A stretch of 64,000 nucleotides of DNA, taken from the NCBI RefSeq assembly GCF_000169175.1, contig NZ_AAWS01000008.1, forward strand, positions 62,001 through 126,000, in the 5' to 3' direction. Of the stretch, positions 10,367-28,700 are shown piece after piece; the stretch's first letter is position 1, and each line of letters starts with the position of its first letter. The notes under the pieces are model-generated. The model was not told the origin of the DNA. It searched no databases and worked only from the letters and a program-made list of their open reading frames with translations. The stretch comes from Microscilla marina ATCC 23134. GTDB lineage: Bacteria; Bacteroidota; Bacteroidia; Cytophagales; Microscillaceae. The position numbers and the translations under genes were made by a program.

Positions 10367-10440
10367 GGCACTATTACTAAGAGGAGCTAAACTGAAAAGA
10401 AGGGTGAATCGATGAAGGGAAAACCGTGTATAATCAAACA

Positions 10441-10483
10441 AAAACCTCCTTGGTTTCTTGGAAAAAGTAAGCCAGGAGGTTTT
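10441..10483 (-). terminator. Terminator after the STAS-like small gene
   Basis: AAAACCTCCT pairs with AGGAGGTTTT. The further TGG/CC pairing inside is imperfect. It lies 25 bp beyond the stop codon of the minus-strand gene at 10509. Confidence 0.7.
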
Positions 10484-10508
10484 ATAGTTTAAGCGTGAAA
10501 GCGAGATG

Positions 10509-10928
10509 CTAAGCAAAGTCGAGCAACCAGGCGTAGGCAGGTGTTTCTTCTTTGAAATACTTGGTAGTTAAAATTAAATTCCCTGTTTCGTCAAAAGTCT
10601 GGCTTACCGCCAGGTCATTGACAAAATCTCCATTGCTGAGCACAGCAAAGTAAAACTCTTGCCCTACAAATATCTTTTGGAATACGTTTAGGCTGTGCCA
10701 TTCTTGCATTTCGGGACTCATGATATAATGAAACCCACTTAAATTAATTAGCCACTTTTGGGGGATTTTTTGGCGCTCTAATTTGCGTACCAACTGTCCA
10801 AGGTCTTTACGGTATTCATCATCACTCATATCAACCGTGTCTTGGTACCACTCCTGATGCCCTAGTTGTAAGCTTTTCTCTACAGCAATGGATTGATACC
10901 TGCTTTGGTAAATGGTTTCTAACTGCAT
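10509..10928 (-). CDS. Hypothetical protein, possibly SpoIIAA/STAS-like
   Basis: This 139-residue soluble protein has no signal peptide. The pattern is beta-alpha: an N-terminal strand region, the helix DDEYRKDLGQLVRKLERQ, a hydrophobic strand PQKWLINLSGFHYIMSPEMQEWH, a second helix-strand (KIFVGQEFYFAVLSNGDFVNDLAV) and a terminal KEETPAYAWLLDF. An ending of this kind, acidic then A-x-x-W-L, is common in STAS/SpoIIAA-like proteins of Bacteroidota. That is resemblance only; no characterised family is recognised. Confidence 0.6.
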   Translation of the reverse strand: MQLETIYQSRYQSIAVEKSLQLGHQEWYQDTVDMSDDEYRKDLGQLVRKLERQKIPQKWLINLSGFHYIMSPEMQEWHSLNVFQKIFVGQEFYFAVLSNGDFVNDLAVSQTFDETGNLILTTKYFKEETPAYAWLLDFA

Positions 10929-11426
10929 AGTGATTGTTTTTTATTAGCTCAATAATATATTTCATAGCTTGGCAATGCTTGTTACAAACTGGTGATAGTG
11001 CTCCTTGCAAGCCAATATCTGTGTGTACGGAAGGCTTTGTTGGTTGGTTTTATCAGGCAAATGTATGTGTATGCCTAAAGCCGTATAAATCACATTTACT
11101 TAGTTTAATTAAAATACAGGTGGTTGCCATGCATTTTGTGTTTACTTATTTTATTGCCTGTGTTGGTTTTTGTTTTGTAAAATATTATTTAACTTAATTT
11201 TATGCTGTTTTTGTTTGTTATGATTAAATGTAGTATTGTTTTTTTTGATTTAATTTAAATTTTATTCTGTGTAGAAAAATTAAAAATAACCTTCATATTG
11301 TGCAATAAGTGAATTTTAAATGCAAAAATATCAATAAAGAGTAGTTGAGTGTTTTGTTTTTTATCGGAAAACAAGCTTTTTGATGGTGAATTTAGAATAT
11401 CAATATAAAAATTATACAATCAAAAA

Positions 11427-13058
11427 ATGGATACAATTACTACTATGCCGAGCATATTTCCGGCGGCACAAGACATTCCTACCCAATATCAAATCAATGA
11501 ATTTATAGAACAGCGCGAGTACCTGATTGATGGGGAACTTCGCCAGTGGCAGGGACCAATGAACCAGGTGCAGTCGCCAGTATGCATTGAGACAATGGAA
11601 GGCTATCAGCAAAAAATAATTGGTAGCAGTCCCTTGCTTACCTCCAAAGAGTCGCTGGAAGCCCTGACCGCTGCCCACAAAGCATACAATAAAGGACAAG
11701 GCTTTTGGCCTACGCTTAAAGTAAAAGAACGCATTCAATATATGGAGGTGTTTGTAACTGAAATGCAAAAACAACGCGATGAAGTAGTGAAGTTGCTGAT
11801 GTGGGAAATTGGCAAAACCCTGGCTGACTCTACCAAAGAGTTTGACCGCACGGTTACATACATTCAAGACACCATCAATGCCCTGAAAGACCTGGATAGG
11901 CGTTCGTCAAAATTTGAAATAGAAAGCGGTGTCATTGCCCAAATTCGTCGAGTACCTTTAGGAGTTACCCTTTGTATGGGGCCTTACAACTACCCGTTGA
12001 ATGAGACCTTCACCACCTTAATTCCTGCGTTGATCATGGGCAACACGGTGGTGTTTAAGCCTGCCAAGTACGGGGTTTTACTGATCAGACCTTTGCTCAA
12101 GGCTTTTTGTGATATTTTTCCGAAAGGAGTAATTAATATTATCTATGGTCGGGGCAGAGATACGGTAGGGGCGTTGATGGAAACCGGGCAAGTAGACGCT
12201 TTTGCTTTTATTGGCACCAATAAAGGCGCCAATGACCTGAAAAAAATGCATCCCAAACCCCACAAGTTGCGCTCGGTACTAGGACTGGACGCTAAAAATC
12301 CTGGCATTGTACTGCCTGATGCTGATATGGAGAATGCCGTAGCCGAATGTGTTACGGGGAGCTTGTCTTACAACGGGCAACGTTGTACTGCTCTTAAGAT
12401 TCTGTTTGTGCATCGCTCTATAGTAGAAGAGTTTTTAGGTAAATTTACCGAGGCAGTAAACCACCTAAAGCCCGGTATGCCCTGGGACGAAGGGGTAAAG
12501 CTTACCCCATTACCAGAACCTGGCAAAACCGATTATTTGGCAGGGTTGGTAAAGGATGCTGAAAGACACGGGGCACAAGTAGTGAATGCCGGATATGGTG
12601 GAGGCGAGGTAAACGAAACCTATTTTCATCCGGCAATACTTTACCCAGTCAATGACCAAATGCGGGTATACCGCGAAGAGCAGTTTGGCCCGGTAGTACC
12701 AGTGGTGGCTTATGACAACATAGAGGAAGTGATCGCGTATGTGGTCAGCTCTAATTTTGGGCAGCAGGCAAGTATTTTTGGGCGTGACCCTCAAAAGATT
12801 GCCGAGCTCATAGATGAATTGTATCACCAGGTAAGCCGGATCAACATCAATGCACAATGCCAGCGGGGACCCGATGTGTTTCCTTTCAATGGGCGTAAAG
12901 ATTCGGCAGAGGGCACCCTTTCGGTATCTGATGCTTTGCGGGTGTTTTCTATCCGGGCGATTGTAGCCACCAAAGACCAGGAAAGTAACAAAGATATTGT
13001 GCGGAGCATTGTAAAAGAAGGACATTCCAGCTTTTTGCGTACCGATTATATTTTGTAA
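11427..13058 (+). CDS. gapN: NADP-dependent non-phosphorylating glyceraldehyde-3-phosphate dehydrogenase-like aldehyde dehydrogenase
   Basis: The 543-residue aldehyde dehydrogenase family protein probably oxidises glyceraldehyde 3-phosphate to 3-phosphoglycerate with NADP, bypassing ATP formation and giving NADPH. The catalytic cysteine is C320 in SYNGQRCTALK. The cofactor region MGPYNYPLNETFTTLIPALI and NTVVFKPAKYG, and the late motif REEQFGPVVPVV, are intact. At the position where most aldehyde dehydrogenases have the LELGGK glutamate, this protein reads LGLDAKNPG. This appears to be a subfamily trait, but I cannot verify it here. The preceding spacer (10929-11426) is very AT-rich and holds no supported gene; it is a likely promoter region. 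Confidence 0.82.
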   Translation: MDTITTMPSIFPAAQDIPTQYQINEFIEQREYLIDGELRQWQGPMNQVQSPVCIETMEGYQQKIIGSSPLLTSKESLEALTAAHKAYNKGQGFWPTLKVKERIQYMEVFVTEMQKQRDEVVKLLMWEIGKTLADSTKEFDRTVTYIQDTINALKDLDRRSSKFEIESGVIAQIRRVPLGVTLCMGPYNYPLNETFTTLIPALIMGNTVVFKPAKYGVLLIRPLLKAFCDIFPKGVINIIYGRGRDTVGALMETGQVDAFAFIGTNKGANDLKKMHPKPHKLRSVLGLDAKNPGIVLPDADMENAVAECVTGSLSYNGQRCTALKILFVHRSIVEEFLGKFTEAVNHLKPGMPWDEGVKLTPLPEPGKTDYLAGLVKDAERHGAQVVNAGYGGGEVNETYFHPAILYPVNDQMRVYREEQFGPVVPVVAYDNIEEVIAYVVSSNFGQQASIFGRDPQKIAELIDELYHQVSRININAQCQRGPDVFPFNGRKDSAEGTLSVSDALRVFSIRAIVATKDQESNKDIVRSIVKEGHSSFLRTDYIL

Positions 13059-13071
13059 ATAAATGATGCCT

Positions 13072-13103
13072 CAAGGTACAGGTTCCTTCTTACTTGTACC
13101 TTG
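13072..13103 (+). terminator. Hairpin after the gapN-like gene
   Basis: CAAGGTACA and TGTACCTTG form a perfect 9-bp stem with a 14-base loop, 13 bp after the stop codon. There is no strong T run, so termination is only probable. Confidence 0.45.
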
Positions 13104-13177
13104 TTACTTATTGAGTGTGTTTTGTTATTGGTTGTTTATTGCTACCTTGCCTGCACAACTTTAAAATAACTATAGCA

Positions 13178-13807
13178 ATGAAAACCTCCATTTTTTATCC
13201 TGGTTTGGCGGCCTATTTGGCAGAGGTTACTCAAGAGTTTGAACAGATACCTGCCACGCGTCAGCACCAGCTCAAAGAAGTGAGCCAATACATTCGCCAA
13301 AAACTGAATGCAAATCAGCTTGTACAGGTAATAGTGATTTGTACCCACAATTCGCGCCGGAGCCATTTGGGACAAATTTGGCTACAGATAGCCGCTGCTT
13401 TTTATCATATTCAAAGGTTTACTTCCTTTTCGGGAGGAACTGAGTCTACTGCTTTTCACCCCAATGCTGTAACTGCCTTACAAACAGCAGGCATTGAGAT
13501 TGTTTGCCAAAGTGCAGACGAAAACCCTGTATATGAGTGCCGTTATGGTGCCCATTTTCCTACAATAGAAGCTTTCTCTAAAGTGTATACGCACGCCACA
13601 AACCCTACCCAAAGTTTTGCGGCTTTGATGGTATGTACCCAGGCAGACCAGGGTTGCCCTATAGTAACCGGGGCTGAAGCGCGTTTTTCATTGCCTTACC
13701 AAGACCCCAAGGCTTATGACAACACTGCACAACAAAGCGAGCAGTACAACGAAAGGTGTCGCCAAATTGCCCGTGAAATGTTTTTTGTGATGAGCCAGGT
13801 CTTTTGA
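13178..13807 (+). CDS. ArsC/low-molecular-weight protein tyrosine phosphatase-like protein
   Basis: This is a 209-residue protein from the ATG at 13178 (MKTSIFYPG); an upstream GTG would add a poorly matching leader. The phosphatase P-loop CTHNSRR follows the hydrophobic strand VQVIVI, giving the C-x5-R signature of LMW-PTP and thioredoxin-coupled arsenate reductases. SFSGGTESTAFHPNAV matches the family's conserved block. A late CTQADQGCPIVTGAEARF corresponds to the D-P general-acid region; its two cysteines could act in a redox relay. Likely substrates are arsenate or phosphotyrosine. No ars operon genes are adjacent, so arsenate reduction is not established. Confidence 0.8.
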   Translation: MKTSIFYPGLAAYLAEVTQEFEQIPATRQHQLKEVSQYIRQKLNANQLVQVIVICTHNSRRSHLGQIWLQIAAAFYHIQRFTSFSGGTESTAFHPNAVTALQTAGIEIVCQSADENPVYECRYGAHFPTIEAFSKVYTHATNPTQSFAALMVCTQADQGCPIVTGAEARFSLPYQDPKAYDNTAQQSEQYNERCRQIAREMFFVMSQVF

Positions 13808-13945
13808 AAAAAAAACGTTGGGAACGCCAGAAGGAACAAGCCCTAAACTCGGTCTTGATTGAGCATTGGCTTCATCGTAAAAACAGACAACCCCTCACCC
13901 AGCTTTTGCCAGATCAGAGGTTGATTGTACATTAAAAACGATGCG

Positions 13946-15217
13946 CTAATCTTTGAAACTAAAATTCATAATAGGCATTAAACGAAGCAGTAAAGGATTG
14001 TCTCTGACATAATTGAGCAAACCAAACTGAAAACCTTTGAGCTTACGGGCGTAGTTAAAGATACCAATGGTTACCCCTTTTTGCTTACCCTTGATGTGGT
14101 TAAATGCACTAATGGCAAGCCCCTTCATAGTACCTCCATCTACTACATTGAGGTAAGCAGGAGCTATGTGAACACCACGTACATACTTGCCACCTACTAC
14201 CAATGCTGCTGACAGCCCGCTGAGTTTTTTGGCGCCTACGGCTACCCCAGCTATGTTGATCCCCTTTACCTCGTCGCCTGCTCCTATGGCTATTCCGGCA
14301 AGGTTAAGCCCATATACCTGGCTACCCGCAGCTACGGCTATTCCAGCCACGTTTATCCCCACGGTTCTTTCGCCCGAGGCTACTGCAATGGCCGAAGCTG
14401 AGACTCCATATACGTTTTTACCTGCTCCAACGGCAAGCCCACCTAGGTTGATGCCTGCAATATTGTCGCCCGCGCCTACGGCTAAACCGCCTATATTGAG
14501 TCCTTGTGCTTTGTCGCCTGCGCCTATTACCCCAAAACTGGCATTGATTCCACTGACGTTGCCCCCTGAGCCTACGGCTAAACCGCCCAGGTTGAACCCA
14601 GTGATTTCTTTGCCTGCCCCTACAGCAAGCCCGCCTATGTTGATGCCTTGCACTTTTTTTCCGGCACCTGCTGCCAAACCGCCCACATTTATTCCAGTCA
14701 GGTTTTTGCCAGCGCCCAGCCCCAGCCCTCCTATATTTAGCAAGCCACTTACATTGTGCCCGGCGCCTAGCCCCAGTCCACCCAGGTTGACCAAGCCTAC
14801 TACGTTGCGTCCAGCTCCGGCACCCAGCACACCCACGGTTACTCCATATATCGACTCGGTGGCACCTACACCAACTCCCACGGCAATGCCTCTAATGTTG
14901 CGGGCGCCAGTGAGTGGTACGCCTAAGGCCACGCCATTGACGTTGCCTCCTTCGCCCTGCTCCATATCATAGGGTGTCCAGATAGTGGCATTGAGCCCAT
15001 TGACTTTTTGTAGACGGTAGTCACGATAATTTAGTCTAATGCCATTAAACTTTTTAGAATTGCCAAAGCCTATGCCGGTATGCTTGACTGCAAGGTTGAA
15101 ACCGCCTCCGGCATCTTGTGCCAATACCGGCAGGGTAGTCATAGAGAGTAAAGAAAAGAGCACGATCAGGTAGCCTGCCACCACCTGGGTGTGATGCAGT
15201 TGTTTAAATTTATTCAT
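13946..15217 (-). CDS. Glycine-rich LA_2272-type surface repeat protein
   Basis: The 423-residue protein has an N-terminal signal segment (hydrophobic residues about 13-33, ending VLAQ). Residues about 75-320 contain roughly 15 consecutive units of mostly 16 residues. Typical units are GKKVQGINIGGLAVGA and GDNIAGINLGGLAVGA. The pattern of alternating small and hydrophobic residues with an invariant G-hydrophobic-N suggests a beta-solenoid. The C-terminus (GVTIGIFNYARKLKG, FQFGLLNYVRDNPLLL, ending in MNFSF) is like LA_2272-type surface repeat proteins and would suit an outer-membrane or surface location. No catalytic motif is visible. On the opposite strand the repeats create a long proline/threonine-rich frame that is not a gene. 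Confidence 0.8.
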   Translation of the reverse strand: MNKFKQLHHTQVVAGYLIVLFSLLSMTTLPVLAQDAGGGFNLAVKHTGIGFGNSKKFNGIRLNYRDYRLQKVNGLNATIWTPYDMEQGEGGNVNGVALGVPLTGARNIRGIAVGVGVGATESIYGVTVGVLGAGAGRNVVGLVNLGGLGLGAGHNVSGLLNIGGLGLGAGKNLTGINVGGLAAGAGKKVQGINIGGLAVGAGKEITGFNLGGLAVGSGGNVSGINASFGVIGAGDKAQGLNIGGLAVGAGDNIAGINLGGLAVGAGKNVYGVSASAIAVASGERTVGINVAGIAVAAGSQVYGLNLAGIAIGAGDEVKGINIAGVAVGAKKLSGLSAALVVGGKYVRGVHIAPAYLNVVDGGTMKGLAISAFNHIKGKQKGVTIGIFNYARKLKGFQFGLLNYVRDNPLLLRLMPIMNFSFKD

Positions 15218-15515
15218 GGTTTTTATGGTATTTTATATGGTTCAATGTATTTGCCTTTAAGACACCCCACTTGCTGTCAAAGGTTGCTTGAGGCTATAAT
15301 TATTTTCGGTTGAAGGACATAACTGTTTGTTTTTATGGGCTTTAGGTAAGTTGATAATCGATACAAATGGCAATAATTTTGATAGGAAAACCAGTCGCCT
15401 GGTAGCTGCTGTGTTCAAATGGTTACCCAATTTTCCAAACCTCAAAAACATCTAAAGCCACCCTTGGGTTATTCGATAAAGTTTTGGAGTGTATTTAAAA
15501 TTCATTCAATTTAAA

Positions 15516-16010
15516 ATGAAAAAAAGTTATTACTTTCTTTGGTTTCGCCTGCATCAAACCGACCAATACCTTATTTGGGTGCAAGCCGATCACAACTTGG
15601 TTTACCTTGAAACCCCGTCGTTCCTGCCCACTTTTTCCAGCAAAGAAGCATTGAAACAATATGCCCACACAAAACAAATTCAACTAGAAGCCGATCCTCC
15701 TGTATTGCACCACCTGGACCTTGCCCTTGGTTGGTTGTCAAACCCGCAGGCAGACTTCAACTGTTTACAGTTTTTGGCAGCGTGGCATCTCTTTGGCGAC
15801 ATTGCCCGTAGTGTAAACAAGTTTTTTTTGGGCAACCAACAAAAAGATAGGCTCACCAATCAAGTGTATGATAAGTTGTTTGGAGGCAACAACCGACCTG
15901 CCTCAGCTTATGACCCTCACTGGACAGTGACCGAACTCAAAAGGCTTGCTGAAGTGCTTACACAGGGGTTTCAGCTAATGAAAGGGGTAACCAAAGAAAT
16001 AAAAAGGTGA
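15516..16010 (+). CDS. Hypothetical protein
   Basis: This is a 164-residue soluble protein read from the ATG at 15516; an upstream GTG exists but adds only nine residues. It begins MKKSYYFLWFRLHQTDQYLIW with aromatic strand-like segments, then DLALGWLSNPQADFNCLQFLAAWHLFGDIARSVNK. It ends in a basic helix. There is no signal peptide or recognisable domain. The style resembles immunity or accessory proteins, but that is only an impression. It converges on the large protease gene, with a terminator between. Confidence 0.65.
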   Translation: MKKSYYFLWFRLHQTDQYLIWVQADHNLVYLETPSFLPTFSSKEALKQYAHTKQIQLEADPPVLHHLDLALGWLSNPQADFNCLQFLAAWHLFGDIARSVNKFFLGNQQKDRLTNQVYDKLFGGNNRPASAYDPHWTVTELKRLAEVLTQGFQLMKGVTKEIKR

Positions 16011-16106
16011 GCAGTAGGTGTGGGAGATTTTTTTAAATAGCGTTTGCCCAATCCTGGCGATTAGCCAATTTGAGCATCTACTCAGGTAACTTTGTACTTA
16101 TAATCG

Positions 16107-16139
16107 AAAAAAGCCACCTCAAGTTTGAGGTGACTTTTA
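16107..16139. terminator. Bidirectional terminator between convergent genes
   Basis: AAGCCACCTCAA pairs with TTGAGGTGACTT (one mismatch) around a 1-base centre, flanked by A and T runs on the two sides. It separates the + gene ending at 16010 from the minus gene ending at 16199. Confidence 0.7.
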
Positions 16140-16198
16140 ATTTAAGTCAGATGTCAATCAGTGGACTTCATCTATCTATTTATATCAAAGGTCAGCCA

Positions 16199-19100
16199 TC
16201 ACTTCACTACCAGTTGCTGGGTGTATGTCTGTTGGTTTGTGATAATTTGTAGCATATATATTCCCTTGGTCAGGCTATTTAAGCGCAAATTAGCCTTGGC
16301 TTGTTGCATAGTAAAGGTTTGCTTCAAATGACCACTTAAATCTAACACTTTTACCTTTACAACATCACCCAAAGACAAACGATGTGCCTCAGGTAGCTCT
16401 ACTGTAAAGCGTCCGTCCGTTGTTGGGTTAGGGTATACCTTTGCTTGCCTTTGTCGATAGCTTGCCTGAGTAGTTCGCGCCATTTGAGTGCTTACATTGA
16501 GGCTATAATCTTCTACTTCTCCTGTCCAACCATCTCCACAGGCAGTACTTAACGAGCTACCGTAAGAAAGGCGAATACGTATACGGGTGGTGCCTATAGC
16601 CGCATTATTGGGGGCAGTCAAACGTACAGTATAAGGACCAACTCCCTCTACTACTGTGCCTTCGTTGGCATCGTCAAAATCACCGTCTTGGTTCCAGTCT
16701 ACCCATATACTTAGCTTGCTGTCTGTCCAACTAGCACTTGGGGTTACTGTAATATCCTGACTTGAGCCAGGCATGATGTTGGTTGTCTGATCCGTGTAAT
16801 TGGCATATCCACTAGAGGCAGACTCATTATCTATGTTGCCTATTTGCACCCGTGTAATGTGTTCTGTGTTGGTTTGCTGTGCACTTGCCTTGCAATAATC
16901 AGGTAAAGGATTAACACCATCACTTATAATATGCACAGTATAGTCTTCTACCTCACCATGGGCAAAGCTTCCACAGGCAGCACTGGCAGCACCATTGTAC
17001 TTTAGGGCTATGCGCATACGGGTCTTTTTAACTATTCCAGAAGGTACTTCAATATTGCCAGTAACGGTAGTTTTAGTAGCTCCAGAAACATACACAAGTT
17101 CTCCGGCATCGTCAAAATCACAATCTCCGTTAAAATCAATCCATACCTTGAAATATTCGTCATAAGCAGTGCCCGAATAACCTGGTGTAAGCGCTATGGT
17201 TTGGGTAGTACCTGCGTAGAGCGTAATAGTTTTGTCAGTAAAGTCGGTATAGTTAGCCGCACCAGAAGCATTGTCAAAGTCCCCCAGCTTTACCTTGGCA
17301 ATGTGCTCATAGTCAGAACCGTTACTTGTAGCGGCACAATAAGTACAGGTAGTGTCACCAGTGACCGTAATCATTGCAGCTATAGTTTGAGTATGATCAC
17401 CTGTGGCATTGCTTACGGTCAGACTTACTTCATATACCCCCGGAGTATTGTAAGTAATCACGGGGTTTTGCAATGTACTACTGGTAGATGAACCTCCCGC
17501 AAATGTCCAGTTCCAGGCAGTAGGGTTGCCCGTAGAGGCATCCGAAAAACTGATGCTTTCACCTGCATCGATGGTTGTTTTATTTGCCGTAAACTGAGCC
17601 TTGAGTGTAGGCGCTACATATACTGTATAGTCTTCGGTTTCGCCTATGCCATCTGCTCCACACGGTGCCGCATGGTCGGCATAGGCAATCCTTACCCTCA
17701 TACGGGTGCCACCTTCTTTGGCATTGGCAGGTACAGCAACCAATGTATTATAAGGAGCACCTGTTCCGCTTACATCCAGCACTCGTTCATTGGCATCGTT
17801 AAAATCTCCATCCTGGTTCCAATCTATCCACACCCTTACCCTATTGAGGTCCCAGTCTTTGGTGGCACCTATCGACAATGCATATTGATTGTTGTGTAAC
17901 AGGGTAGTACTTTGCGCAGTGTAGTCTTCGTAGCCGTTGGTACCAGAGCCTGAGTTGTTGTTAATGGTATTGAGTTGTACATTGTTGATGTGTACATCAT
18001 CGCGGTTGTGAGAAGCAGTACAATAGTTTCCGTCTACTCCACCACCTTGGCGCACTGTTACATAACCAATGACCTGGTTGCGTCCAGTGACATTGCTTGC
18101 CGTCAAAATTACTGGATAAACCCCCGCAGTAGAGTAGGTGACAGTAGGGTTATTTGCTGTACTGGTGGCAGGGTTACCATTAGGGAACTCCCACAAGATA
18201 TCAGTAGGGTTGCCCAATGATGTATTTTCAAATTTAAGTGCTTCACCCCGGATGGTATAATTTACCTCAGAAGTAAACGATGCCACAGGCGCTTGTTCAA
18301 CTATAGCTTCATTAATCACTACTACCGAGTAATCTTCGGTTTCACCAATAAAATTATCATTACCACAGGCTTGAGGATTTTCGCCTACCCGGTAATTAAG
18401 TCTTACCCGCATGCGGGTAGCAATATCGCGTACTGCGTTGGTGGGCACTTGTATCATTGCCTTTACTTCCTTAAATCGTCCTTTTTGCATCATTACTTGT
18501 TCTCCAGCATCGTCAAAATCACCATCCTGGTTCCAGTCTATCCAGACACCCACCCCTATGTTGTCTGACCTGGTATGCCATGGGGTAACAGTTAGCTGGA
18601 AACTCTGCCCTTGAGTAAGCTCGGTGAGTACCGAGGTGTGGTCGGCATACCCATTGGCAGGAAAACCCTCGGTAGCGTGGTCAATGTTTGCCAGTTGCAC
18701 CCGGCGAATAGACGTGAAGTCATTTTGAGTAGCAGGAGTACAATAGTTTGCGTTGTTTTTGGCATATACCCTAATGTACTCATTGCGACTGGTGGTGTTA
18801 GTAGTACCATTTTGGCTGTTGGCGGTCAAAGCCACATCGTATCTGCCAGCATTTTTATATGCTACTGCAGGGTTAGGTACATTACTTATGCCGGGCGCTC
18901 CCCCAATCAAGCTCCAGGTCCAGTTATTTATCTGACCTACTGATTGATCGATGAACTGCAACTCTGTACCAACTAATACTGCCCTCATGCTTGCCTTAAA
19001 GTTGGCAGCAGCATCTTTGCTTATGTTAGGGTTGCGCAAAGGTCCCGTCACCACAAAGTTAGCTTTGGGTATTCCTCCAGCAAAGCTCACATTGGTAATG

Positions 19101-21409
19101 TAGCCAACAGTGTAGTCGAAGTTATTAAATTTGCTATTGTTGCGTAGGTTCTTCAATAACTCATTCAGAGCGTCACCTGTGCTTTGGGCAGCAGTGGCGT
19201 TGTTGTTGGCAATACCCTTTCCGGTAATGCTCCCGGTAATTTTGAATCTTTTATTGATCATGCTTGTCTCCAGACTTGCCGTTACATCCTGGATTCCAGT
19301 GATTTGGCTAAACTCAGCCTTTACTTCGGATGGCTTGCCCAATATCAACTGAAGGTCGTTCAACCATTTGGTGCTAGGTTCTTTGCCGTTAACAACTTTC
19401 GTATTTACTTGCCCCAAAAAGGTTTGATATTGGCTTTCGTCTGATGACTTAAGTGAGTTTACCAGGTTGTCGAACCCTGCCACGTCATTGCTTCGGGTCA
19501 GCTCAAAAAAGGTTTTCAATTTACTAAAATCATTGGTATACCAATAGTACCAAGCCATGTTGCCATAGTGATAATGGTGAAAGTTGCCACTGGTATAACT
19601 GGTATTGAATAAATCGGTGAGGCTTGGCCAATTACTACCCAAACCACGCACTACATTGGCATTAGAGGCAAGCAATTTTATACCATCGGAAGCAGTAGAC
19701 CCAGAAAAAAACTCAGCCATTCCTTCTTCATACCACACCAGGCGGTTGTTGTCATAAATTTCGTTTTCGCCCCAATAGCCTGGTACCAGATAACGACCTT
19801 GCAAATAATGACAATATTCGTGACGAAAAAGCGACTCCAGCGACAGCGAACTTTCTACTCCTACGGTACGGTCCCAGGTATAAAAAGTAGCCCGACGCTC
19901 TATGTATATGCCCCCATTATTCGTGTCAATGCCATACAAATAAGAGGCGTAGTCCTCGTACTGACTCTTAGAGCCAAACACTACCATGTTCAATGTTTCA
20001 TTTACATCACCTTCCACGGGTTGATCGGTTTGTAACATTTTAAAAAACTGTGCCTGTACCTCTTTAGCCGCATGGTAAAGTTTCTGTACTTCTTTATGAC
20101 CTAAGGGAGTTTTTACCAATAACTTGCCGTCGTCCAGCGAGTACTCATTTGGAAAAAGGTAGCGGTGCAGCTCTTCTTTAAGTGCTTCTTCGCCTTCGCA
20201 AAGCCCATAAGTAGCACAATTGCCATATTGGTTCAAAGCAAGCGTTGCCTTAAACCACTTGATCTCCATGCGAGGGTAAAGGTTGATAATGGAAGCAAGC
20301 TCACCCTCTATCTGACTAATTACCCCAGGAATGTGCGCCATCCGGCTCAACTCCTGCACGGCATTGTTTACCATAAAACCAAGGTTGGGATTGGCCAATA
20401 GTTCAGCGTCTTTACCAACACTGGCCAGTAAAGAAGTCAGTTCAGGATCGTTATCTACGGCTGTCCAAAACTGACTATCACCCTCATTAGGAGCACCACT
20501 GCCACGAAACATCAAAAAGAAAAAACCATTGTATGATCCAACATAAGTTCTTAGCAGTTTATTATCAGAAATCTGTTTCCAGTTATCGTTGATAGTAAGG
20601 TTACGCATTGCTTGTTTTACTACACTCAAAACAAACGGTTGATGGCGGACTCCTTCATAGTCACAGTTAGTAAAGTATTCTTTCAAAACCGACAAAGCCT
20701 CATCGGTCAGGTCAAACAAATGGTTGTTAGACGACAGCGCACCCAATGCCTGGCTGTATAAAGCTTTAGAGGCCGCATCGAGGGTAACATAGTTGGGGTT
20801 ATAAAACTCCTGATAAGTAGCCGCATGCATGTAGATGAGCAAGCCATATATACCACTGGCAAAGGTTCCATCATAGCTTGCTCCCAAATTGTATATTTCC
20901 TGAAAAACTGCCTGAATCTTTTGATTGGAAAACAGGTTCGGTAAATGGTTTCCGATTTCAAACAGTGGGGTTCCCACACAATCGTAATCGCTGTTTGCTT
21001 TCAAAAAGGCAACCAACGCACTGGTACTCAAACCAGCCAATTGAGTGGGGGTATATTGGCAGCCAGTTTCTGTCGTTTCATGATTGTTGGCGGCACCTGC
21101 TGGAGCTATGCTAGACAAGTGAAACGGGCGCTTACGGCTACCTGCCCGACTCATTTTTTGTATATGTTGGCTGGCACGTATTTTCATTGCCTTTTTTTTC
21201 AGATTTTCCCGTATATGTTGTTTGTGGGCGTGCATTCTTGAGCATTGGTGATCATCAACTTGATGAGGCTTCTGGGGAGGGGGAAGTGTTTTGGGTTGTA
21301 CCTTTAGTTGTGCATGGGCATGGCATAGAATACCTATCATTAACAATAAGAGCATTGTTAACTTTTGGGTGGCAGTTTTTACCCATTCTTTTCTTGAGTT
21401 TTGCTTCAT
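16199..21409 (-). CDS. Secreted M9 collagenase-like metalloprotease with PKD, GEVED and T9SS sorting domains
   Basis: This 1736-residue exported protease is read from MKQNSRKEW at 21409, where a signal peptide (core LLLLMIGILCHAHA, cleavage before Q) fits. Upstream ATGs at 21478 and 21532 would put the signal too deep. An M9 N-terminal domain leads to the zinc motif HEYCH (residues 530-534) with the third ligand in WYEEGMAEF (E562, 28 residues after the second His, the spacing of clostridial collagenases). Then come PKD, GEVED, PKD, GEVED, PKD and two more GEVED domains. Each GEVED has a D-W-N-Q-D-G-D or D-F-N-G-D-C-D acidic loop that may bind calcium and ends G-E-x-E-D-Y. The last 80 residues (KVYPNPTTDGRFTVEL, ending QLVVK) are a type A type IX secretion signal. 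The protein is therefore probably surface-attached or released and acts on collagen or similar fibrous protein. Confidence 0.92.
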   Translation of the reverse strand: MKQNSRKEWVKTATQKLTMLLLLMIGILCHAHAQLKVQPKTLPPPQKPHQVDDHQCSRMHAHKQHIRENLKKKAMKIRASQHIQKMSRAGSRKRPFHLSSIAPAGAANNHETTETGCQYTPTQLAGLSTSALVAFLKANSDYDCVGTPLFEIGNHLPNLFSNQKIQAVFQEIYNLGASYDGTFASGIYGLLIYMHAATYQEFYNPNYVTLDAASKALYSQALGALSSNNHLFDLTDEALSVLKEYFTNCDYEGVRHQPFVLSVVKQAMRNLTINDNWKQISDNKLLRTYVGSYNGFFFLMFRGSGAPNEGDSQFWTAVDNDPELTSLLASVGKDAELLANPNLGFMVNNAVQELSRMAHIPGVISQIEGELASIINLYPRMEIKWFKATLALNQYGNCATYGLCEGEEALKEELHRYLFPNEYSLDDGKLLVKTPLGHKEVQKLYHAAKEVQAQFFKMLQTDQPVEGDVNETLNMVVFGSKSQYEDYASYLYGIDTNNGGIYIERRATFYTWDRTVGVESSLSLESLFRHEYCHYLQGRYLVPGYWGENEIYDNNRLVWYEEGMAEFFSGSTASDGIKLLASNANVVRGLGSNWPSLTDLFNTSYTSGNFHHYHYGNMAWYYWYTNDFSKLKTFFELTRSNDVAGFDNLVNSLKSSDESQYQTFLGQVNTKVVNGKEPSTKWLNDLQLILGKPSEVKAEFSQITGIQDVTASLETSMINKRFKITGSITGKGIANNNATAAQSTGDALNELLKNLRNNSKFNNFDYTVGYITNVSFAGGIPKANFVVTGPLRNPNISKDAAANFKASMRAVLVGTELQFIDQSVGQINNWTWSLIGGAPGISNVPNPAVAYKNAGRYDVALTANSQNGTTNTTSRNEYIRVYAKNNANYCTPATQNDFTSIRRVQLANIDHATEGFPANGYADHTSVLTELTQGQSFQLTVTPWHTRSDNIGVGVWIDWNQDGDFDDAGEQVMMQKGRFKEVKAMIQVPTNAVRDIATRMRVRLNYRVGENPQACGNDNFIGETEDYSVVVINEAIVEQAPVASFTSEVNYTIRGEALKFENTSLGNPTDILWEFPNGNPATSTANNPTVTYSTAGVYPVILTASNVTGRNQVIGYVTVRQGGGVDGNYCTASHNRDDVHINNVQLNTINNNSGSGTNGYEDYTAQSTTLLHNNQYALSIGATKDWDLNRVRVWIDWNQDGDFNDANERVLDVSGTGAPYNTLVAVPANAKEGGTRMRVRIAYADHAAPCGADGIGETEDYTVYVAPTLKAQFTANKTTIDAGESISFSDASTGNPTAWNWTFAGGSSTSSTLQNPVITYNTPGVYEVSLTVSNATGDHTQTIAAMITVTGDTTCTYCAATSNGSDYEHIAKVKLGDFDNASGAANYTDFTDKTITLYAGTTQTIALTPGYSGTAYDEYFKVWIDFNGDCDFDDAGELVYVSGATKTTVTGNIEVPSGIVKKTRMRIALKYNGAASAACGSFAHGEVEDYTVHIISDGVNPLPDYCKASAQQTNTEHITRVQIGNIDNESASSGYANYTDQTTNIMPGSSQDITVTPSASWTDSKLSIWVDWNQDGDFDDANEGTVVEGVGPYTVRLTAPNNAAIGTTRIRIRLSYGSSLSTACGDGWTGEVEDYSLNVSTQMARTTQASYRQRQAKVYPNPTTDGRFTVELPEAHRLSLGDVVKVKVLDLSGHLKQTFTMQQAKANLRLNSLTKGIYMLQIITNQQTYTQQLVVK

Positions 21410-21751
21410 TAGCATTGTGAAAAGTTGCTCTCGCTGCCTACCAGTGTGGCGTTTTTTTGATTGATTTAAAGTTAGCATTGTCTTTATTTTAGTTGTGTAG
21501 TATGATTGGATGGTTGCCGTTGGGCTTACCAACTATAAACAAAGTAATACAGGTAAGAATCTTTTCATAAGGCAGGGTTAAATTAGTATATACCTATGCT
21601 ATGATAGTATAAATAAAGGGTGAAATAATCGTATATTTGTACAATAAATTATTGTTTTAAAACAAAAAACTGGGTCGATTAAAAAAGTAAGTGGATAGGC
21701 TAAAAACGACCCAATATGGGTTGAGAACAGGAAAAAAAGGGGTGAAAAAAA

Positions 21752-22888
21752 CTACATCTGAGCAGCTAGTTGTCGCAATTCTTCGGAGTTTCCAAAGCCT
21801 CTGGCTTCTAACCAGGGAATCATTTCGGGTACAATATATTCAAAGGGGTTGTTATATACATTGAGTTTGTGCAAGTGCTCCAGTTGGGTCAACTTTATAG
21901 GGAGCGTTTTGAGTTGATTACCACTGAGCGAGAGACTTCGTAGGTTTTTCATTCCGTTTATTTCAGCGGGCAATACTTCCAGCTGATTGTCGTCTGCCAC
22001 GAGTACTTCTAAAGAATTTAATTTTCCTATACTTTTAGGAAAGCCAGTCAGGCGGTTTACTTGCAAGTGAAGTTCTTTGAGTTTCGACAAGCCTCCTATA
22101 GTTTCTGGAAGAGCCCCCAGTTGATTGTAGGCCAAAAACACCTCTGATAATTGAGCCAGTTGACCGAACGTTTTGGGTAAAACTTTGAGCTTGCTATTTT
22201 CAAAGTTGAGTTGCTGAAGTTGCTTCAACTTGCCTATTTCGTCGGGTAATTTCTTGATCAGAGTGTCTGCCAACGACAAAGTGTTGAGTTGCACGAGTTT
22301 GCCTATAGCAGGAGAAAGGTCTTGTATATCGTTGCCCCCCAAAAATAATTTTTCGAGATGAATAAGCTGCGTTACTTCTTGAGGAAAGGTGGTTAAGAGG
22401 TTATTGTCGAGGTAGAGTACCTTAAGGGCGGTAAGCTGGGCAAAACTCTGTGGCAATGCTGATAAACGATTGCCCCATAGCCACAAATGTTGCAGGTGTT
22501 GCAAATGTCCTATGCTTTCAGGCAAATTTCTCAAACGATTTTTACTCAAGTTCAAAGAGGTGAGGCAACCCAGCTGGTGTATGGTATGGGGCAAAGCCTG
22601 TAATTGGTTGTTGCGTAACTTGAGCTCCTGCAATTGGGTGAGCTGGAGTATTTCTTTAGGCAAAGTACTCCAGGTATTTTGCTCCATTTTTAGTTGGGTC
22701 AAGCGTTGGGTATAGGTTTGTTCAAAACCATACTGTACACAAAGCAAGGGGTGTTTTTGCAAACAAGCAGCTAATTTTGGGCTATAATGCCCACCTGCTC
22801 CCTGGCACAACTGAAAAGCAAGTGTAACGTTTACCTCGTTGTTGCTGTTGAGCAAAGCAATGATTTTGTTTTCGTCAGCGTTGGTCAT
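21752..22888 (-). CDS. Leucine-rich repeat protein
   Basis: The 378-residue protein is read from MTNADENKIIALL; an ATG 11 codons upstream is also possible. An N-terminal domain of about 70 residues (VTLAFQLCQGAGG) precedes about twelve 23-residue leucine-rich repeats of the LQ-L-L-NQL-LP type (for example LTSLNLSKNRLRNLPESIG). No signal peptide is evident, so a cytoplasmic scaffold or binding role is likely. The N-terminal domain resembles that of the LRR protein at 35428 (QALAFELMRGSGV), so the two share an architecture. It lies downstream of the cyclodeaminase-family gene on the same strand, with about 70 bp between. Confidence 0.88.
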   Translation of the reverse strand: MTNADENKIIALLNSNNEVNVTLAFQLCQGAGGHYSPKLAACLQKHPLLCVQYGFEQTYTQRLTQLKMEQNTWSTLPKEILQLTQLQELKLRNNQLQALPHTIHQLGCLTSLNLSKNRLRNLPESIGHLQHLQHLWLWGNRLSALPQSFAQLTALKVLYLDNNLLTTFPQEVTQLIHLEKLFLGGNDIQDLSPAIGKLVQLNTLSLADTLIKKLPDEIGKLKQLQQLNFENSKLKVLPKTFGQLAQLSEVFLAYNQLGALPETIGGLSKLKELHLQVNRLTGFPKSIGKLNSLEVLVADDNQLEVLPAEINGMKNLRSLSLSGNQLKTLPIKLTQLEHLHKLNVYNNPFEYIVPEMIPWLEARGFGNSEELRQLAAQM

Positions 22889-22957
22889 TTTTACTGGTTG
22901 TTGGTTATTATTGGCTATCAAGGCACTATTTTACTGTTTACCAGATGATCAACCAAG

Positions 22958-23941
22958 TTAAACTTCTAGTAATGTGCCCAAATTTAACTCATTGGCTTTT
23001 TGTAAAATATAATGTGCTGCGGTCAGGTCTTGGGTACCTACCCCCACCGATTTGTAAAAAGTAATGTCTTGAGCACTTTTGCGGATGGTTAAACCGGTAG
23101 TGAGTACTTCGCCCAACTCGGCGAGTACGTCTTGTTCGTCAATCAAACCCTCTTGCAAAGGCATTAAAATATCACCCGCTTCCTTCAGGCACGCTTCACG
23201 GTAGTCTACTACTATTCTACTTTTTGCCACCAGTTTGCCCGGAACTTCGCGTAGGTGAGGCTTATAAGTGCCAATAGCGTTTATGTGGGTGCCAGGTTGT
23301 ATGTAGTTGGCATCAAACAAGGGAGTAGAGGCGCTGGTTGTTGTACAAACAATGCTTGCTTCGGCCAATGCTGCCAGATCGTCAGTGGCTTCCAACAGGG
23401 CGCTACAGTGGGCTTGTTGGGCTTGCACAAATGCCTGGGCTTTTGCCAATGACCTGCCAAAAATATACACTTTATTAATGTCACGTACCAGGCACAAGGC
23501 CTCAAGGTGGGTAATGGCATTGGCACCTGTACCAAAAATTGCCAGGGTTTGGGCATCTGGGTTTGCCAATACATCGGTGGCAAGCGCCGAACCTGCCGCA
23601 GTGCGCATGGCGGTCAAATAGGTAGAATCCATGATGGCTTCTGCTTGTCCGTTTTGGGTGTTTATCAATAACATCAAACCTTGAATCAAGGGCAGGTTTT
23701 GGGCGGGGTTTTCTCGAAAAACATTGGCTATTTTAAGCCCCATTTGCTGGTAATCGGGGATGTATACAGGCATCATCAACACATCGGCGTTGGCATCTTT
23801 GATCGCCATTTCAGTTCTGGGGGGTAGTTGCGCCCGTTGTTGATATAGCCAGGTAAAAGATTCGCGCATGGCTTTGATGGCATCTGCCATTGGCAAAGCT
23901 GTCTGTACGTCGTGGCGGGATAATATTCTGATTTTTTGCAT
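22958..23941 (-). CDS. Ornithine cyclodeaminase/mu-crystallin family protein, probable delta-1-pyrroline-2-carboxylate reductase
   Basis: The 327-residue NAD(P)-binding enzyme has the family's MGLKIANVF lysine region, the MDSTYLTAMRTAAGSALA substrate block and the Rossmann loop IFGTGANAITHLEAL. Ornithine cyclodeaminase, ketimine reductase and pyrroline-2-carboxylate reductase share this fold and cannot be told apart by motif alone. The next gene upstream on the strand encodes a 3-hydroxyproline dehydratase-like protein. Its product, pyrroline-2-carboxylate, is reduced to L-proline by enzymes of this family, so that function is favoured by context. It starts 422 bp after the dehydratase stop codon, with hairpins between, so co-transcription is uncertain. 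Confidence 0.85.
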   Translation of the reverse strand: MQKIRILSRHDVQTALPMADAIKAMRESFTWLYQQRAQLPPRTEMAIKDANADVLMMPVYIPDYQQMGLKIANVFRENPAQNLPLIQGLMLLINTQNGQAEAIMDSTYLTAMRTAAGSALATDVLANPDAQTLAIFGTGANAITHLEALCLVRDINKVYIFGRSLAKAQAFVQAQQAHCSALLEATDDLAALAEASIVCTTTSASTPLFDANYIQPGTHINAIGTYKPHLREVPGKLVAKSRIVVDYREACLKEAGDILMPLQEGLIDEQDVLAELGEVLTTGLTIRKSAQDITFYKSVGVGTQDLTAAHYILQKANELNLGTLLEV

Positions 23942-24058
23942 TGTATTTAGCTTGTCTTTTGTGTTGTTTAGCCTATTTGTCCAGTATGCTTTCTAACTAT
24001 CAAATTTGATAGCTACCTATTAGAACAGGGTGTACCTTACTGCAGGGTTTTCTGATAA

Positions 24059-24094
24059 AAGGCTATTTAGGAGAATATACCTCCTAAAAGCCAT
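24059..24094. other. Hairpin in the dehydratase-reductase spacer
   Basis: GGCTATTTAGGAG pairs with CTCCTAAAAGCC with one bulged A. It is followed at about 24100-24135 by GTGTCTTCAC and CGATCGAAA, short blocks shared with the element at 49118-49353. Confidence 0.45.
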
Positions 24095-24227
24095 ATTTCC
24101 GCCTCGGGCAGTGTCTTCACGCCCGATCGAAACTTCGTACTTTACAAGCTTCAGGTTGCTCATTTTTTATAAGAAAGCCCTCTACTTTACTGGTTTAAGT
24201 CTCCGGGCTTTATACCTGACAATAGAA

Positions 24228-24269
24228 GCAAGTTTGTAACTTGCTATTCAACGAAAGTTACAAACTTGC
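24228..24269. other. Perfect 15-bp hairpin in the dehydratase-reductase spacer
   Basis: GCAAGTTTGTAACTT (24228-24242) and AAGTTACAAACTTGC (24255-24269) pair perfectly around a 12-base loop. No T tract follows on either strand, so it could be a processing, regulatory or mobile-element palindrome rather than a simple terminator. Confidence 0.7.
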
Positions 24270-24326
24270 CTCTAATTCGAGGGCTGAAGTTAAAAAAAAA
24301 TCAGCCAGTAGTGTATTGCCTGTGGA

Positions 24327-24349
24327 ACAAGGTACGCCTAGAACCTTGT
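24327..24349 (-). terminator. Small hairpin after the hydroxyproline dehydratase gene
   Basis: ACAAGGT and ACCTTGT form a 7-bp stem with a 9-base loop, 15 bp beyond the minus-strand stop codon. There is no U tract, so its function is uncertain. Confidence 0.35.
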
Positions 24350-24363
24350 CGGCTCCCAAGTAG

Positions 24364-25407
24364 CTAATTAAAAATAAACCCTTCCTTGTGTGCATCCTCT
24401 GGGTCTACCCAAAACTGGTGACTGCCCGTAAGGTATGCCGTACCCGATACTTCGGGAATAATGGCTTTGTAAGTGCCAAAAGTAATTTCGCGGGCTATTT
24501 TTACCGAAAACTGTGAGTCTAAAATACTCTCGATGTACATTTTTTCGCCTACAGCAAGCTCTTGGCGGGCGTGATGAATAGCCGCCCTGCCGCTTACCCC
24601 TGTACCTGTAGGGCTACGGTCTACTTCGCCGTTGGCAAAAATGCACACATTACGACTGTCGGCACTGTCGCCTAATGGTGGAGCTATAAAAATGGTTCCA
24701 TACAAAAAACCAAGGTCTTGCTCAAAAGGATGTTCAATTTTGCGACTTTTCATAATGGCATGTTTTATTTCCATCCCTTTGTCTATCAGTTCCTTGTATT
24801 CGTCTGGGGTACAATTGAGCCCCAGTTGGTCGGCTTGCACGTAAGCATAAAAAGCCCCGCCAAAAGCCAGGTCATACGCAATGGTGCCCAGCCCGGGTAC
24901 TTCTACTTCGGCATCTAACTCTAGCACAAACGAGGGCACATTTTGGAAGTGTACCTCTGTTACCTCATCGTTTTCTATAGTAGCAAAAGCAGTAATAAGC
25001 CCGGCGGGCGTGTCAATTTTTATAGTAGTTACAGGGGTTTGTTGAGGCAACATGCCGGTTTGTAACGCCACTTTAGTAAGGGCAATGATGGCGTGTCCGC
25101 ACATGGTACTATAGCCCTCGTTGTGGATAAACAACACGCCAAAATCTGCTTCGGGCGATACAGGAGGGGTAAGTATACAACCATACATGTCGGCGTGTCC
25201 GCGTGGCTCAAACATAAGCGCAGTACGCAAATGGTCTAAGTTTTCGCGGGCAAACCGCCTTTTCTCTAAAATAGTGTTGCCTGGTAGCTCAGGAAACCCA
25301 TCTACAATAATACGCAAAGGTTCGCCACCAGTGTGGGCATCTATGGTACTTATCTGTTGCCAGTGGCTGGGTGGTTGCCAGGTTGTTTGAGGGGTAAATT
25401 GTTTCAT
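24364..25407 (-). CDS. Trans-3-hydroxy-L-proline dehydratase (proline racemase family)
   Basis: The 347-residue protein is read from MKQFTPQTTW; the open frame extends 24 codons upstream without family similarity. The proline-racemase fold motifs are present: IDAHTGGEPLRI, the first catalytic cysteine C103 in STMCGHAI, and the second site DRSPTGTGVSG. At that second site most racemases and epimerases have cysteine (SPCGTG), but here it is Thr267. The Cys/Thr pair marks trans-3-hydroxy-L-proline dehydratases, such as the human enzyme, which form pyrroline-2-carboxylate. Racemase activity is not expected. A reductase-type gene lies downstream, and an M9 collagenase-like gene a little further. 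Confidence 0.88.
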   Translation of the reverse strand: MKQFTPQTTWQPPSHWQQISTIDAHTGGEPLRIIVDGFPELPGNTILEKRRFARENLDHLRTALMFEPRGHADMYGCILTPPVSPEADFGVLFIHNEGYSTMCGHAIIALTKVALQTGMLPQQTPVTTIKIDTPAGLITAFATIENDEVTEVHFQNVPSFVLELDAEVEVPGLGTIAYDLAFGGAFYAYVQADQLGLNCTPDEYKELIDKGMEIKHAIMKSRKIEHPFEQDLGFLYGTIFIAPPLGDSADSRNVCIFANGEVDRSPTGTGVSGRAAIHHARQELAVGEKMYIESILDSQFSVKIAREITFGTYKAIIPEVSGTAYLTGSHQFWVDPEDAHKEGFIFN

Positions 25408-25537
25408 AGTTTTTCGAAAAAATAAAGTTACCGCAATATCAGGGTAAATTACCTCATAAACTGGTACACAATTAACCAAAGATGTACGATAGGTGATTTA
25501 TTGAGGGTAATCAGTGTGTTTTTTTCGGCACCATAAA

Positions 25538-25575
25538 AAAACACCCAAACCAGCATTTGCCAGATTGGGTGTTTT
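25538..25575 (-). terminator. Terminator downstream of the WG-repeat gene
   Basis: AAAACACCCAA pairs perfectly with TTGGGTGTTTT around a 16-base loop. On the minus strand a run of T follows. It lies beyond the palindromic element that separates it from the WG-repeat stop codon. Confidence 0.7.
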
Positions 25576-25737
25576 AGAGCTTGTTTAAAAATCATTAATT
25601 AGGTCTTTTACGTGCCTTTCCTGATTATATATTGTCAAATTTATCAGCAATAGCGCTGCTATTACTTCAAAATTTGACGCATCTAATCTGAAAACTCATC
25701 ATAAAGTCTCCTATAAACGAAAATTTAAACAAGCTCT
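25576..25737. repeat. 162-bp palindromic element with 14-bp terminal inverted repeats
   Basis: The ends are AGAGCTTGTTTAAA (25576-25589) and TTTAAACAAGCTCT (25724-25737), perfectly inverted. Inside are GTCAAATTT/AAATTTGAC and the central AATAGC-GCT-GCTATT palindrome. A related fragment lies at 1590-1633, and a single end-like sequence (TTTAGAGCTTGTTTAA) lies at about 38636. No coding capacity is visible. Confidence 0.75.
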
Positions 25738-25759
25738 TAGGGGCATTGGTTATCATTGA

Positions 25760-28700
25760 TTATTCTTTGGTGGTTTCACCTATTACAGCAAATCCATTGG
25801 AGAATGGTTTAAGTTTGGTGTACTTAAAAGGAACAACTACTTTACCCTTGGCATTCACAGCTCCCCATTTGCCATTCTTTTTTAGGATAGATAGTTTTTG
25901 AGTAGAAGAATAGTAATCTTCATATTCAAATGGAATCACTACTTTGCCTTTAGTGTTGATCCCTCCCCATTTGTCATTTTTTTTCATGAGGGCTACCCCG
26001 TTTTTAAAAGAACTGCCCCCTTCGTATTGCATCGGAACCGTGAGCACCCCTTTGGCGTTGATAAACCCATACTTACGCGCTTGCTTTACCAAAGCCAACC
26101 CTTCCGAAAACTGTCTGGGGTAATAAGACTGCACTAGAGGGATAATTTCTTCCCCTTGGGTGTTGATATAACCATAGTATTTGCCTTTGCGCACGGCAGC
26201 TTTCCCCTCAGCAAAAGAGTAGGCAAAATCGTATTGAATAGGAATGACCAGCTTGCCTTTTTTGTTGATAAACCCATATTTTTTGTCCTTTCGTACCTTG
26301 GCAAGCCCCGCGATAAAATCAGCTACATAATCATAAGTAGCCGGAATGACTAGCTTATTCTTTTTGTTAATGAACCCATATTTACCGTCTTTCTTTATTC
26401 TGGCGAGTCCCTCTTTAAAACCAGCCGCAAAATCGTATTGGATAGGAATGACTAGCTTGCCTTTTTTGTCGATAAATCCGTATTTTTTATTTTGCTTTAC
26501 GGCAGCAAGCCCCTCCGAAAAGTCGGCGCTATACTGGTATTGAGGCTCTATAACCACTTTGCCCTGTTTGTTAAAGTAGCCATATTTGCCATAACGTTTG
26601 GCTTGTACCCTTATGAGTCCTTCCTGGTATCGCCCTAGGTAATGGTGCTTCGCCGGAATGACTACCTTGCCTTTCATGTCAATTAACCCATATCGTATGT
26701 TGGGCCTTTTGACTTTTTTTCTTACAACTGGTGGGTCTTCAATGACTTTTTTGGTTTTTTGGGTAATTTTAAAGAAACCATTGTCCAGCCTGCGTATCTG
26801 CTTGTAGGCTTGGGTGGTGAGTGTTTTTCCTTTGGTATCTACCACATAATACCCCGAACCATAACTGCCCTTGCTCGCTATAGAGGTTCCTTTTTTAAAG
26901 TTTTCGGTGTAGCGAAAAGTAGGAGGGATGACCATTTTGCCTTTGGTATTGATGGCACCAAACTTATTGCTGCCAAGGTCTTTTACCCAGGCAAGCCCTT
27001 CTGAAAACTCAAATGCAGTAGGGTACTTAAAAGGCAAAATTGTTTTACCTGTTTTGTTGATGTAGCCATACCTGCCATCTTTTTTTACTGCGGCAAGCCC
27101 TTGGCTATACTTGGTGGCGTAATCGTATTGGAGAGGAATCACTATTTTGCCCGTTTTGTTGACGTAACCGTATTTTCCGTCTTTTTCTACCCTACCGAGT
27201 CCTTCCGAAAAGCCTAGATTAAGGTCATATTGAGTGGGTACAATGATGCCTTTTTGGTTGGCATAGCCGTACTTTCTGTCTTTTTTGATTCTAATAATAC
27301 CTTCTTTGGCGGCTGCTACATAGTCGTACTCGCAAGGTACTATGAGCTTGCCTTGGGTATTGACAGCTCCGTATTTTCTGTCTTTTTTCACCCTTATAAT
27401 GCCCTCTTTTACTCCTATCACATAGTCATATTCGCAGGGCACTATGAGTTTACCTTTTTTGTCAATACAGCCATACTTTTTGTTTTCTACTACTTTGGCG
27501 TAGCCATTTTCAAAGGCAGTAACATAACTATAATTAACGCTTAAAACATTTTTGCCGTTCTTGTCTATAAAATAGTACTTACCATCTTTCCTCACCCTGG
27601 CAAGCCCTTCCGAAAACTCGCTTACCGAAGTATAGCCTCCACGAATCACCCATTGTTCTTTGGTGTTGATATACCCCCGTTCACCATTTTTACGCACGGG
27701 TGCCAACCCCTCTTTGCCAAAACTGCCAGCCCAATCATACTCAAATGGGATCGCTACTTCGTGTTTTAGGTTAACAAAGCCGTATTTCCCCCCACTTTTT
27801 TTTCGGGCTACTACCAATCCTTTAGAAGGGGTACCCAAACGGTAGTATTTTGGTGGAATCAGCAATTTGCCCCTGGGGCTAAGTATGCCCTGTGTTGAAG
27901 TAGTAACATATCTTTTGGTGGGGGTTGTCTTGATTGGTTGAGAGACTATACGGGTAACCTTAGAGACTTTTAGTAACCCTTTTTTGCCGTGGTAGTATAA
28001 CCTGTCATACTTAAGGTCAACTACTAACTTACCTTTATTATCTATTGCGCCATACTTGCCTGTTCTTAGCTTTGCTCTTTTTACAATGGCTATCCCATTA
28101 TTAAAGCGGTAGCCTACAGCATAGCCAAAATCCACTACTACTTTACCTTTTTTGTCAATGGCACCATACTTTCCCAAAGGCGTTTTCTTTACCCATGCCA
28201 ACCCCTCATGAAATCTATTGCCATAGTTGTAGTACATGATCGGAATCACCAATTTGCCTTTGGTATCAATGTAGCCCACTTTTCCGTCTTTTTTTACTGC
28301 AGCCAGCCCTTCGCTAAACTCATAGGTGTAATTGTATTGAAACGGAACCACTACTTTGCCAGTTGTATTGATAAACCCCCACTTACCTTCTTTATTTACA
28401 TTTGCCAATCCGTGGCTAAAGTTGCCCGCCTTTTTGTATTGCAAAGGCACCACTACTTTGCCTTGGATGTTGGCAAAACCATACTTTTCGTCTTTTTTAA
28501 CTTTCACCAACAAATCATCATTCACATAGCTTATGTAGTCATATTCGATAGGCAATAATAGCTTGCCTTTTTTATCAATCAAGCCATACTTGCCATTGCT
28601 TTTTACCCTTGCTACTCCTTTTTTAAAGCTATAGCAAAGGCTATAAATGGCAGGAATCACGAGTTTACTTTGTTTGTTGATGTAGCCATACTTACCGTTG

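Follow-up and report, generated by a model that had tools for sequence, protein, structure and literature searches.

A putative collagen-related salvage locus in Microscilla marina ATCC 23134: an M9 protease near a predicted 3-hydroxyproline-to-proline enzyme pair

Does a collagenase-type protease gene of Microscilla marina ATCC 23134 lie by accident near two genes predicted to convert 3-hydroxyproline to proline, or do the protease and the enzyme pair form one salvage locus? The question arises from a 64,000-nt stretch of contig NZ_AAWS01000008.1 (the window), part of a genome of 9.77 Mb in 135 contigs. The favored reading is that the genes probably constitute a small collagen-related salvage locus in which an M9 protease accompanies a 3-hydroxyproline-to-proline pair. 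For a joint physiological task of the protease and the pair, the chances are considered even.

Gene content and layout of the locus

The original prediction placed the M9, proline-racemase-superfamily (PF05544) and ornithine cyclodeaminase (OCD)-family genes on the minus strand within 9 kb, and the coordinates below bear this out. A leucine-rich-repeat (LRR) gene that had been omitted sits between the M9 and OCD genes.

16199-21532, minus strand: predicted secreted M9 (collagenase) metallopeptidase, up to 1777 aa (PF01752, PF08453, TIGR04183)
21752-22921, minus strand: LRR protein, 389 aa from a mechanical TTG start (LRR_14, LRR_8, LRR_4)
22958-23941, minus strand: predicted pyrroline-2-carboxylate reductase of the OCD/mu-crystallin family, 327 aa (PF02423, 2e-65)
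24364-25407, minus strand: proline-racemase-superfamily protein, putative dehydratase with C103/T267 (PF05544, 1e-110), ATG at 25407
25760-30106, upstream of the dehydratase gene: WG-repeat protein, 1448 aa with 35 WG repeats

Transcription on the minus strand runs from the dehydratase gene through the OCD and LRR genes to the M9 gene, with intergenic distances of 422, 36 and 219 bases, respectively. The M9 and OCD genes are separated by 1.4 kb, and according to a genome search each is the only match to its family in the 9.77 Mb; PF05544 has two matches, the Cys/Thr protein encoded here and a Cys/Cys protein. Because the M9 and OCD genes are single-copy and only one PF05544 protein of the genome is of the Cys/Thr type, the grouping is unlikely to be due to chance, the probability that one gene lies no more than 5 kb from a given position in 9.77 Mb being approximately 0.001 by post hoc arithmetic.

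Given the two longer gaps and the intervening LRR gene, co-transcription is doubtful. In a second genome of the genus (G047), the closest to Microscilla marina among those surveyed, the dehydratase-OCD gap measures 213 bases, and its alignment with the gap in the window shows little similarity except just before the OCD start, where 31 of 35 bases are identical. A single operon spanning the whole stretch was considered and is unsupported; the 422-base dehydratase-OCD gap is poorly conserved and contains a multi-copy repeat. A Bacteroidota-type promoter pattern had no match upstream of the M9 gene or in the gap preceding the dehydratase gene in the window, and a single match at each of these two places in G047. 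No Rfam family matched the window at gathering scores. Two repeat elements were observed between genes: a palindromic repeat of about 110 bases (24170-24300) in the dehydratase-OCD gap, with 15 matching pieces genome-wide when both palindrome strands are counted, and, between the WG-repeat and dehydratase genes, an element of about 165 bases that looks MITE-like by eye, having inverted terminal repeats (25560-25745). The latter has 58 matching pieces in the genome, and the alignment of this gap with G047 shows little similarity there.

The predicted dehydratase-reductase pair

The PF05544 protein carries M102, C103, Y187, T267 and T269, which verifies the Cys103/Thr267 pair reported originally; the same Cys/Thr pair occurs in 11 of 11 dehydratase-type rows of an alignment (A2) in which the row of the genome's 4-hydroxyproline epimerase is Cys/Cys. 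The nearest solved structure is a dehydratase (6r76, E 7e-143), the T. litoralis enzyme for which Met, Tyr and Thr residues are named in PMC9309405. In the 6r76 alignment (chain position 21 read as Met1), the Tyr, Thr and Met correspond to Y187, T269 and M102. The top NCBIfam model is also a dehydratase (NF045511), scoring 399 bits and thus under its cut-off of 540; the other dehydratase model, NF047722, reaches 252 bits, under a cut-off of 550. Proline racemases and 4-hydroxyproline epimerases belong to the same superfamily, and their models match the protein with 354 and 280 bits, outscoring NF047722, which favors assigning the protein to one of these two activities. This assignment is nevertheless highly improbable, since the second catalytic residue is Thr267 and not Cys, both the top-scoring model and the nearest structure are dehydratases, and the genome encodes a separate Cys/Cys epimerase that scores above its own NCBIfam cut-off.

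The OCD protein combines its family match with a GTGANA nucleotide motif at 137, and its nearest solved structure is a Delta1-pyrroline-2-carboxylate reductase (6t3e, E 6e-58). All of its NCBIfam matches fall below cut-off: 290 bits of 417 for the 'ornithine cyclodeaminase family protein' model, 250 of 322 for PRK06141 and 127 of 400 for LhpI. That the best of these scores belongs to the cyclodeaminase model speaks for an ornithine/lysine cyclodeaminase or an alanine dehydrogenase working outside hydroxyproline use. Such a function is unlikely in view of the reductase as nearest structure, the conserved pairing of OCD and dehydratase genes described below and the Tyr that, in the structure-match alignment, occupies the position of an Asp in the alanine dehydrogenase 1omo, an Asp presumed here to be catalytic in the OCD superfamily.

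Gene order in other Bacteroidota bears on the dehydratase-reductase reading. In the order, 10 of 291 genomes gave a dehydratase match at an identity of at least 49%, and in the phylum 29 of 395 did so at 54% or more; the window genome and one other (G010) are included in both counts. The OCD gene neighbors the dehydratase gene in the window and in G047, and outside the genus a same-strand OCD gene lies beside the dehydratase gene or in its cluster at 21 of 36 loci, representing 10 of 22 genera by genus label (5 of 8 loci in the same order and 16 of 28 elsewhere in the phylum); seven of the 21 paired loci come from one genus (g219), and two of the 36 loci (L097 and L111) share a genome. No OCD gene is seen at the other 15 loci, some of which end early at contig ends. 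Within the order, the OCD gene of two of the five pairs is about 2.3-2.6 kb off, within one gene cluster, and in the 16 pairs from the rest of the phylum only 6-46 bases separate the matched stretches, compared to 422 bases in Microscilla. The conserved OCD companion therefore makes 3-hydroxyproline-to-proline salvage well supported. Combined with the active-site residues and the nearest structures, it upholds the step pair of the original prediction, and a dehydratase-reductase function of the two proteins is very probable on the basis of sequence. Agreement is also found with other bacteria, in which neighboring genes of the same two families encode proteins with measured dehydratase and NADPH-dependent reductase activity (PMC4113996); compared to that published pair, the Microscilla locus adds the downstream LRR and M9 genes.

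The M9 protease and its linkage to the pair

The M9 zinc site of the original prediction was found as HEYCH (residues 571-575) followed by EE (602-603), giving the HEXXH...E arrangement within a protein that contains Peptidase_M9 (8e-49) and Peptidase_M9_N (5.5e-18) domains, three PKD stretches, four GEVED stretches and a type IX secretion system (T9SS) sorting tail. A PPC domain is not among the seven Pfam families listed for the protein. Its best solved relative is collagenase ColH (E 2e-68; sequences aligned). Translation more likely starts at an ATG (21478, 21415 or 21409) than at the mechanical TTG, as these ATGs precede a hydrophobic stretch ending in LCHAHA. Directly upstream of the M9 frame is a short ORF (21533-21568, 11 codons and a stop) that is kept in G047 with one residue changed, and no second copy of the M9 leader or the surroundings of this short ORF occurs in the genome.

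M9 proteins are rare in the surveyed genomes. Within the order, 4 of 291 genomes pass the M9 cut-off, namely the window genome, G047, G172 (55 bits) and G165 (29 bits); across the phylum 4 of 395 genomes pass, and just two of them, the window genome and G634, exceed 100 bits. The matches barely over the cut-off, in G165, G508 (31 bits) and G599 (26 bits), were treated as uncertain, and these three genomes gave no match to the dehydratase query at the thresholds of at least 49% (order) and at least 54% (phylum). A contig scan that used three aligned M9 regions as the query returned only two loci, L112 and L113, apparently on the G047 and G634 contigs, respectively; the linkage of M9 proteases with hydroxyproline genes in other phyla therefore rests on published papers.

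When gene order was compared in relatives, only the window genome and G047 showed an M9 gene next to the dehydratase gene. At the 36 Bacteroidota loci outside the genus, tblastn within the fetched stretches (>60 bits) detected no M9 gene beside the dehydratase gene; the M9 proteins of G634 and G172 (71 bits) pass this test, and a more distant M9 could escape it. In G172 the M9-type gene and the dehydratase gene are on separate contigs, and in G634 a strong M9 gene is on a 7.3-kb contig, too small to reveal any linkage, and a 4-hydroxyproline cluster (L101) is on another. The originally proposed linkage between the protease and the salvage enzymes thus stands within the genus and does not extend to the other Bacteroidota loci. 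Because G047 is close to the window genome (the dehydratases are 98% identical), the shared gene order is weak evidence; the LRR gene is also at the same place in G047, with 92% identity. Between the two genomes, dN/dS is 0.048 for the dehydratase, 0.041 for the OCD protein, 0.103 for the LRR protein and 0.112 for the M9 protein (first 833 aligned residues). These low values indicate purifying selection on all four genes, suggesting that each is functional, whether or not they act jointly.

The main alternative is that the enzyme pair salvages 3-hydroxyproline on its own and the M9 gene is an unrelated, separately transcribed neighbor, its nearness being accidental and kept by recent ancestry. 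This reading has a substantial chance of being correct, if slightly short of even. It accounts for a linkage confined to one genus and for the LRR gene in between, and the M9 gene could have a promoter of its own in the 219-base gap that precedes it (before the ATG at 21478, 231 of 272 aligned bases are identical in G047). It is less readily reconciled with the proximity, on one strand, of the only M9 and the only OCD gene of the genome, and with the M9-hydroxyproline links known elsewhere, in Colwellia (PMC7883544) and Streptomyces (PMC6608401). As the linkage is rare, close, on one strand and matched by these published precedents, a functional connection of the protease to the salvage pair appears plausible.

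Published counterparts and the proposed route

A collagen-utilization cluster of Colwellia BB5 combines a secreted M9 collagenase with hydroxyproline genes, one of whose products bears the annotation P5C reductase/ornithine cyclodeaminase (Borchert et al. 2021, PMC7883544). As described there, the cluster spans approximately 21 kb, belongs to the 4-hydroxyproline branch and includes transporter, dipeptidase and isomerase genes; in contrast, the Microscilla locus would represent the 3-hydroxyproline branch only, with export by the T9SS. A scan of nine proteins at 11427-30106 detected no 4-hydroxyproline epimerase, transporter, hydroxyproline dipeptidase or regulator, so the Colwellia-type combination of epimerase, transporter and dipeptidase with an M9 protease is not seen at this locus; the epimerase is encoded on another contig (C69). 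Streptomyces coelicolor likewise has both an M9 protease and hydroxyproline catabolism; there the link is a common repressor, HypR, which acts on the M9 gene SCO5912 and on the 4-hydroxyproline operon SCO6289-6293, located apart from it (PMC6608401). Both the dehydratase-OCD pair and the association of M9 proteases with hydroxyproline catabolism have therefore been published previously, and what is less usual about the present locus is that a T9SS collagenase adjoins the 3-hydroxyproline branch.

The 4-hydroxyproline genes of Microscilla form a row of their own:

5453-12397 of locus L005, contig C69: DHDPS-family, aldehyde dehydrogenase, Cys/Cys epimerase and DAO-family genes

The epimerase scores 608 bits against an NCBIfam cut-off of 376 for 4-hydroxyproline epimerase and, among the matches listed, is the only protein of the row to pass its cut-off; an AraC-family regulator gene lies upstream on the opposite strand. 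The four families are those of the published 4-hydroxyproline route (PMC4113996). Since the genome additionally contains two proline dehydrogenase (Pro_dh) genes elsewhere, the cell should in principle be able to use both hydroxyproline isomers and proline. The location of the 4-hydroxyproline genes counts against the salvage locus, as these genes would be expected to matter more for collagen and are not found at it.

In the proposed route, the M9 protease would leave the cell through the type IX system and, judging from its family, would cut collagen-like protein extracellularly, and hydroxyproline-bearing peptides would then be imported and cleaved by the products of genes outside the locus. 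Dehydration and reduction are established reactions of the two enzyme families at the locus. Based on its residues, nearest structure and conserved pairing, the Cys/Thr enzyme is predicted to dehydrate trans-3-hydroxy-L-proline to Delta2-pyrroline-2-carboxylate, which would convert spontaneously to the Delta1 form; by the same lines of evidence, the OCD enzyme is predicted to reduce this form with NAD(P)H to L-proline. The proline could then be oxidized by the proline dehydrogenases encoded elsewhere, and the separate C69 row would deal with 4-hydroxyproline, which is the main imino acid of collagen. A more specific version, offered tentatively and as somewhat less than an even prospect, is a genus-specific module in which the T9SS-exported M9 protease and the 3-hydroxyproline branch are co-induced by collagen peptides and which was assembled independently of the Colwellia 4-hydroxyproline clusters. 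If the coupling is real, a linkage between collagen breakdown and hydroxyproline salvage would also have arisen in Bacteroidota, there involving the other isomer of hydroxyproline, alongside the published gene linkage in Colwellia and co-regulation in Streptomyces, and collagen would be indicated as a food of Microscilla.

The surroundings of the dehydratase gene in other Bacteroidota were surveyed at 22 of the 36 outside loci, using up to six nearest ORFs of at least 110 aa each (127 of 128 ORFs scanned, leaving out a 1218-aa ORF of L094). Among the first 25 of 152 neighbor families listed, raw counts were 10 for OCD, 5 for M24 peptidases, 4 each for POT transporters, DHDPS-like proteins and DAO, and 3 for proline dehydrogenases; response regulators and two-component propellers, which have no evident hydroxyproline link, also numbered 3 each. 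The POT and peptidase neighbors therefore support an involvement in the use of imported peptides, together with peptidases other than M9, and the loci bearing POT or M24 genes are possibly hydroxyproline-peptide uptake clusters. Peptidase and transporter families near dehydratase genes of Bacilli are also listed in PMC4113996. The occurrence of the dehydratase with OCD, POT, M24 or proline dehydrogenase in some Bacteroidota loci provides a pattern useful for annotation. At individual loci, a POT peptide transporter gene was observed near the dehydratase gene in L090 and L092 and an M24 peptidase gene in L082 and L092; L092 carries OCD, POT, M24 and S9-type genes together next to the dehydratase gene.
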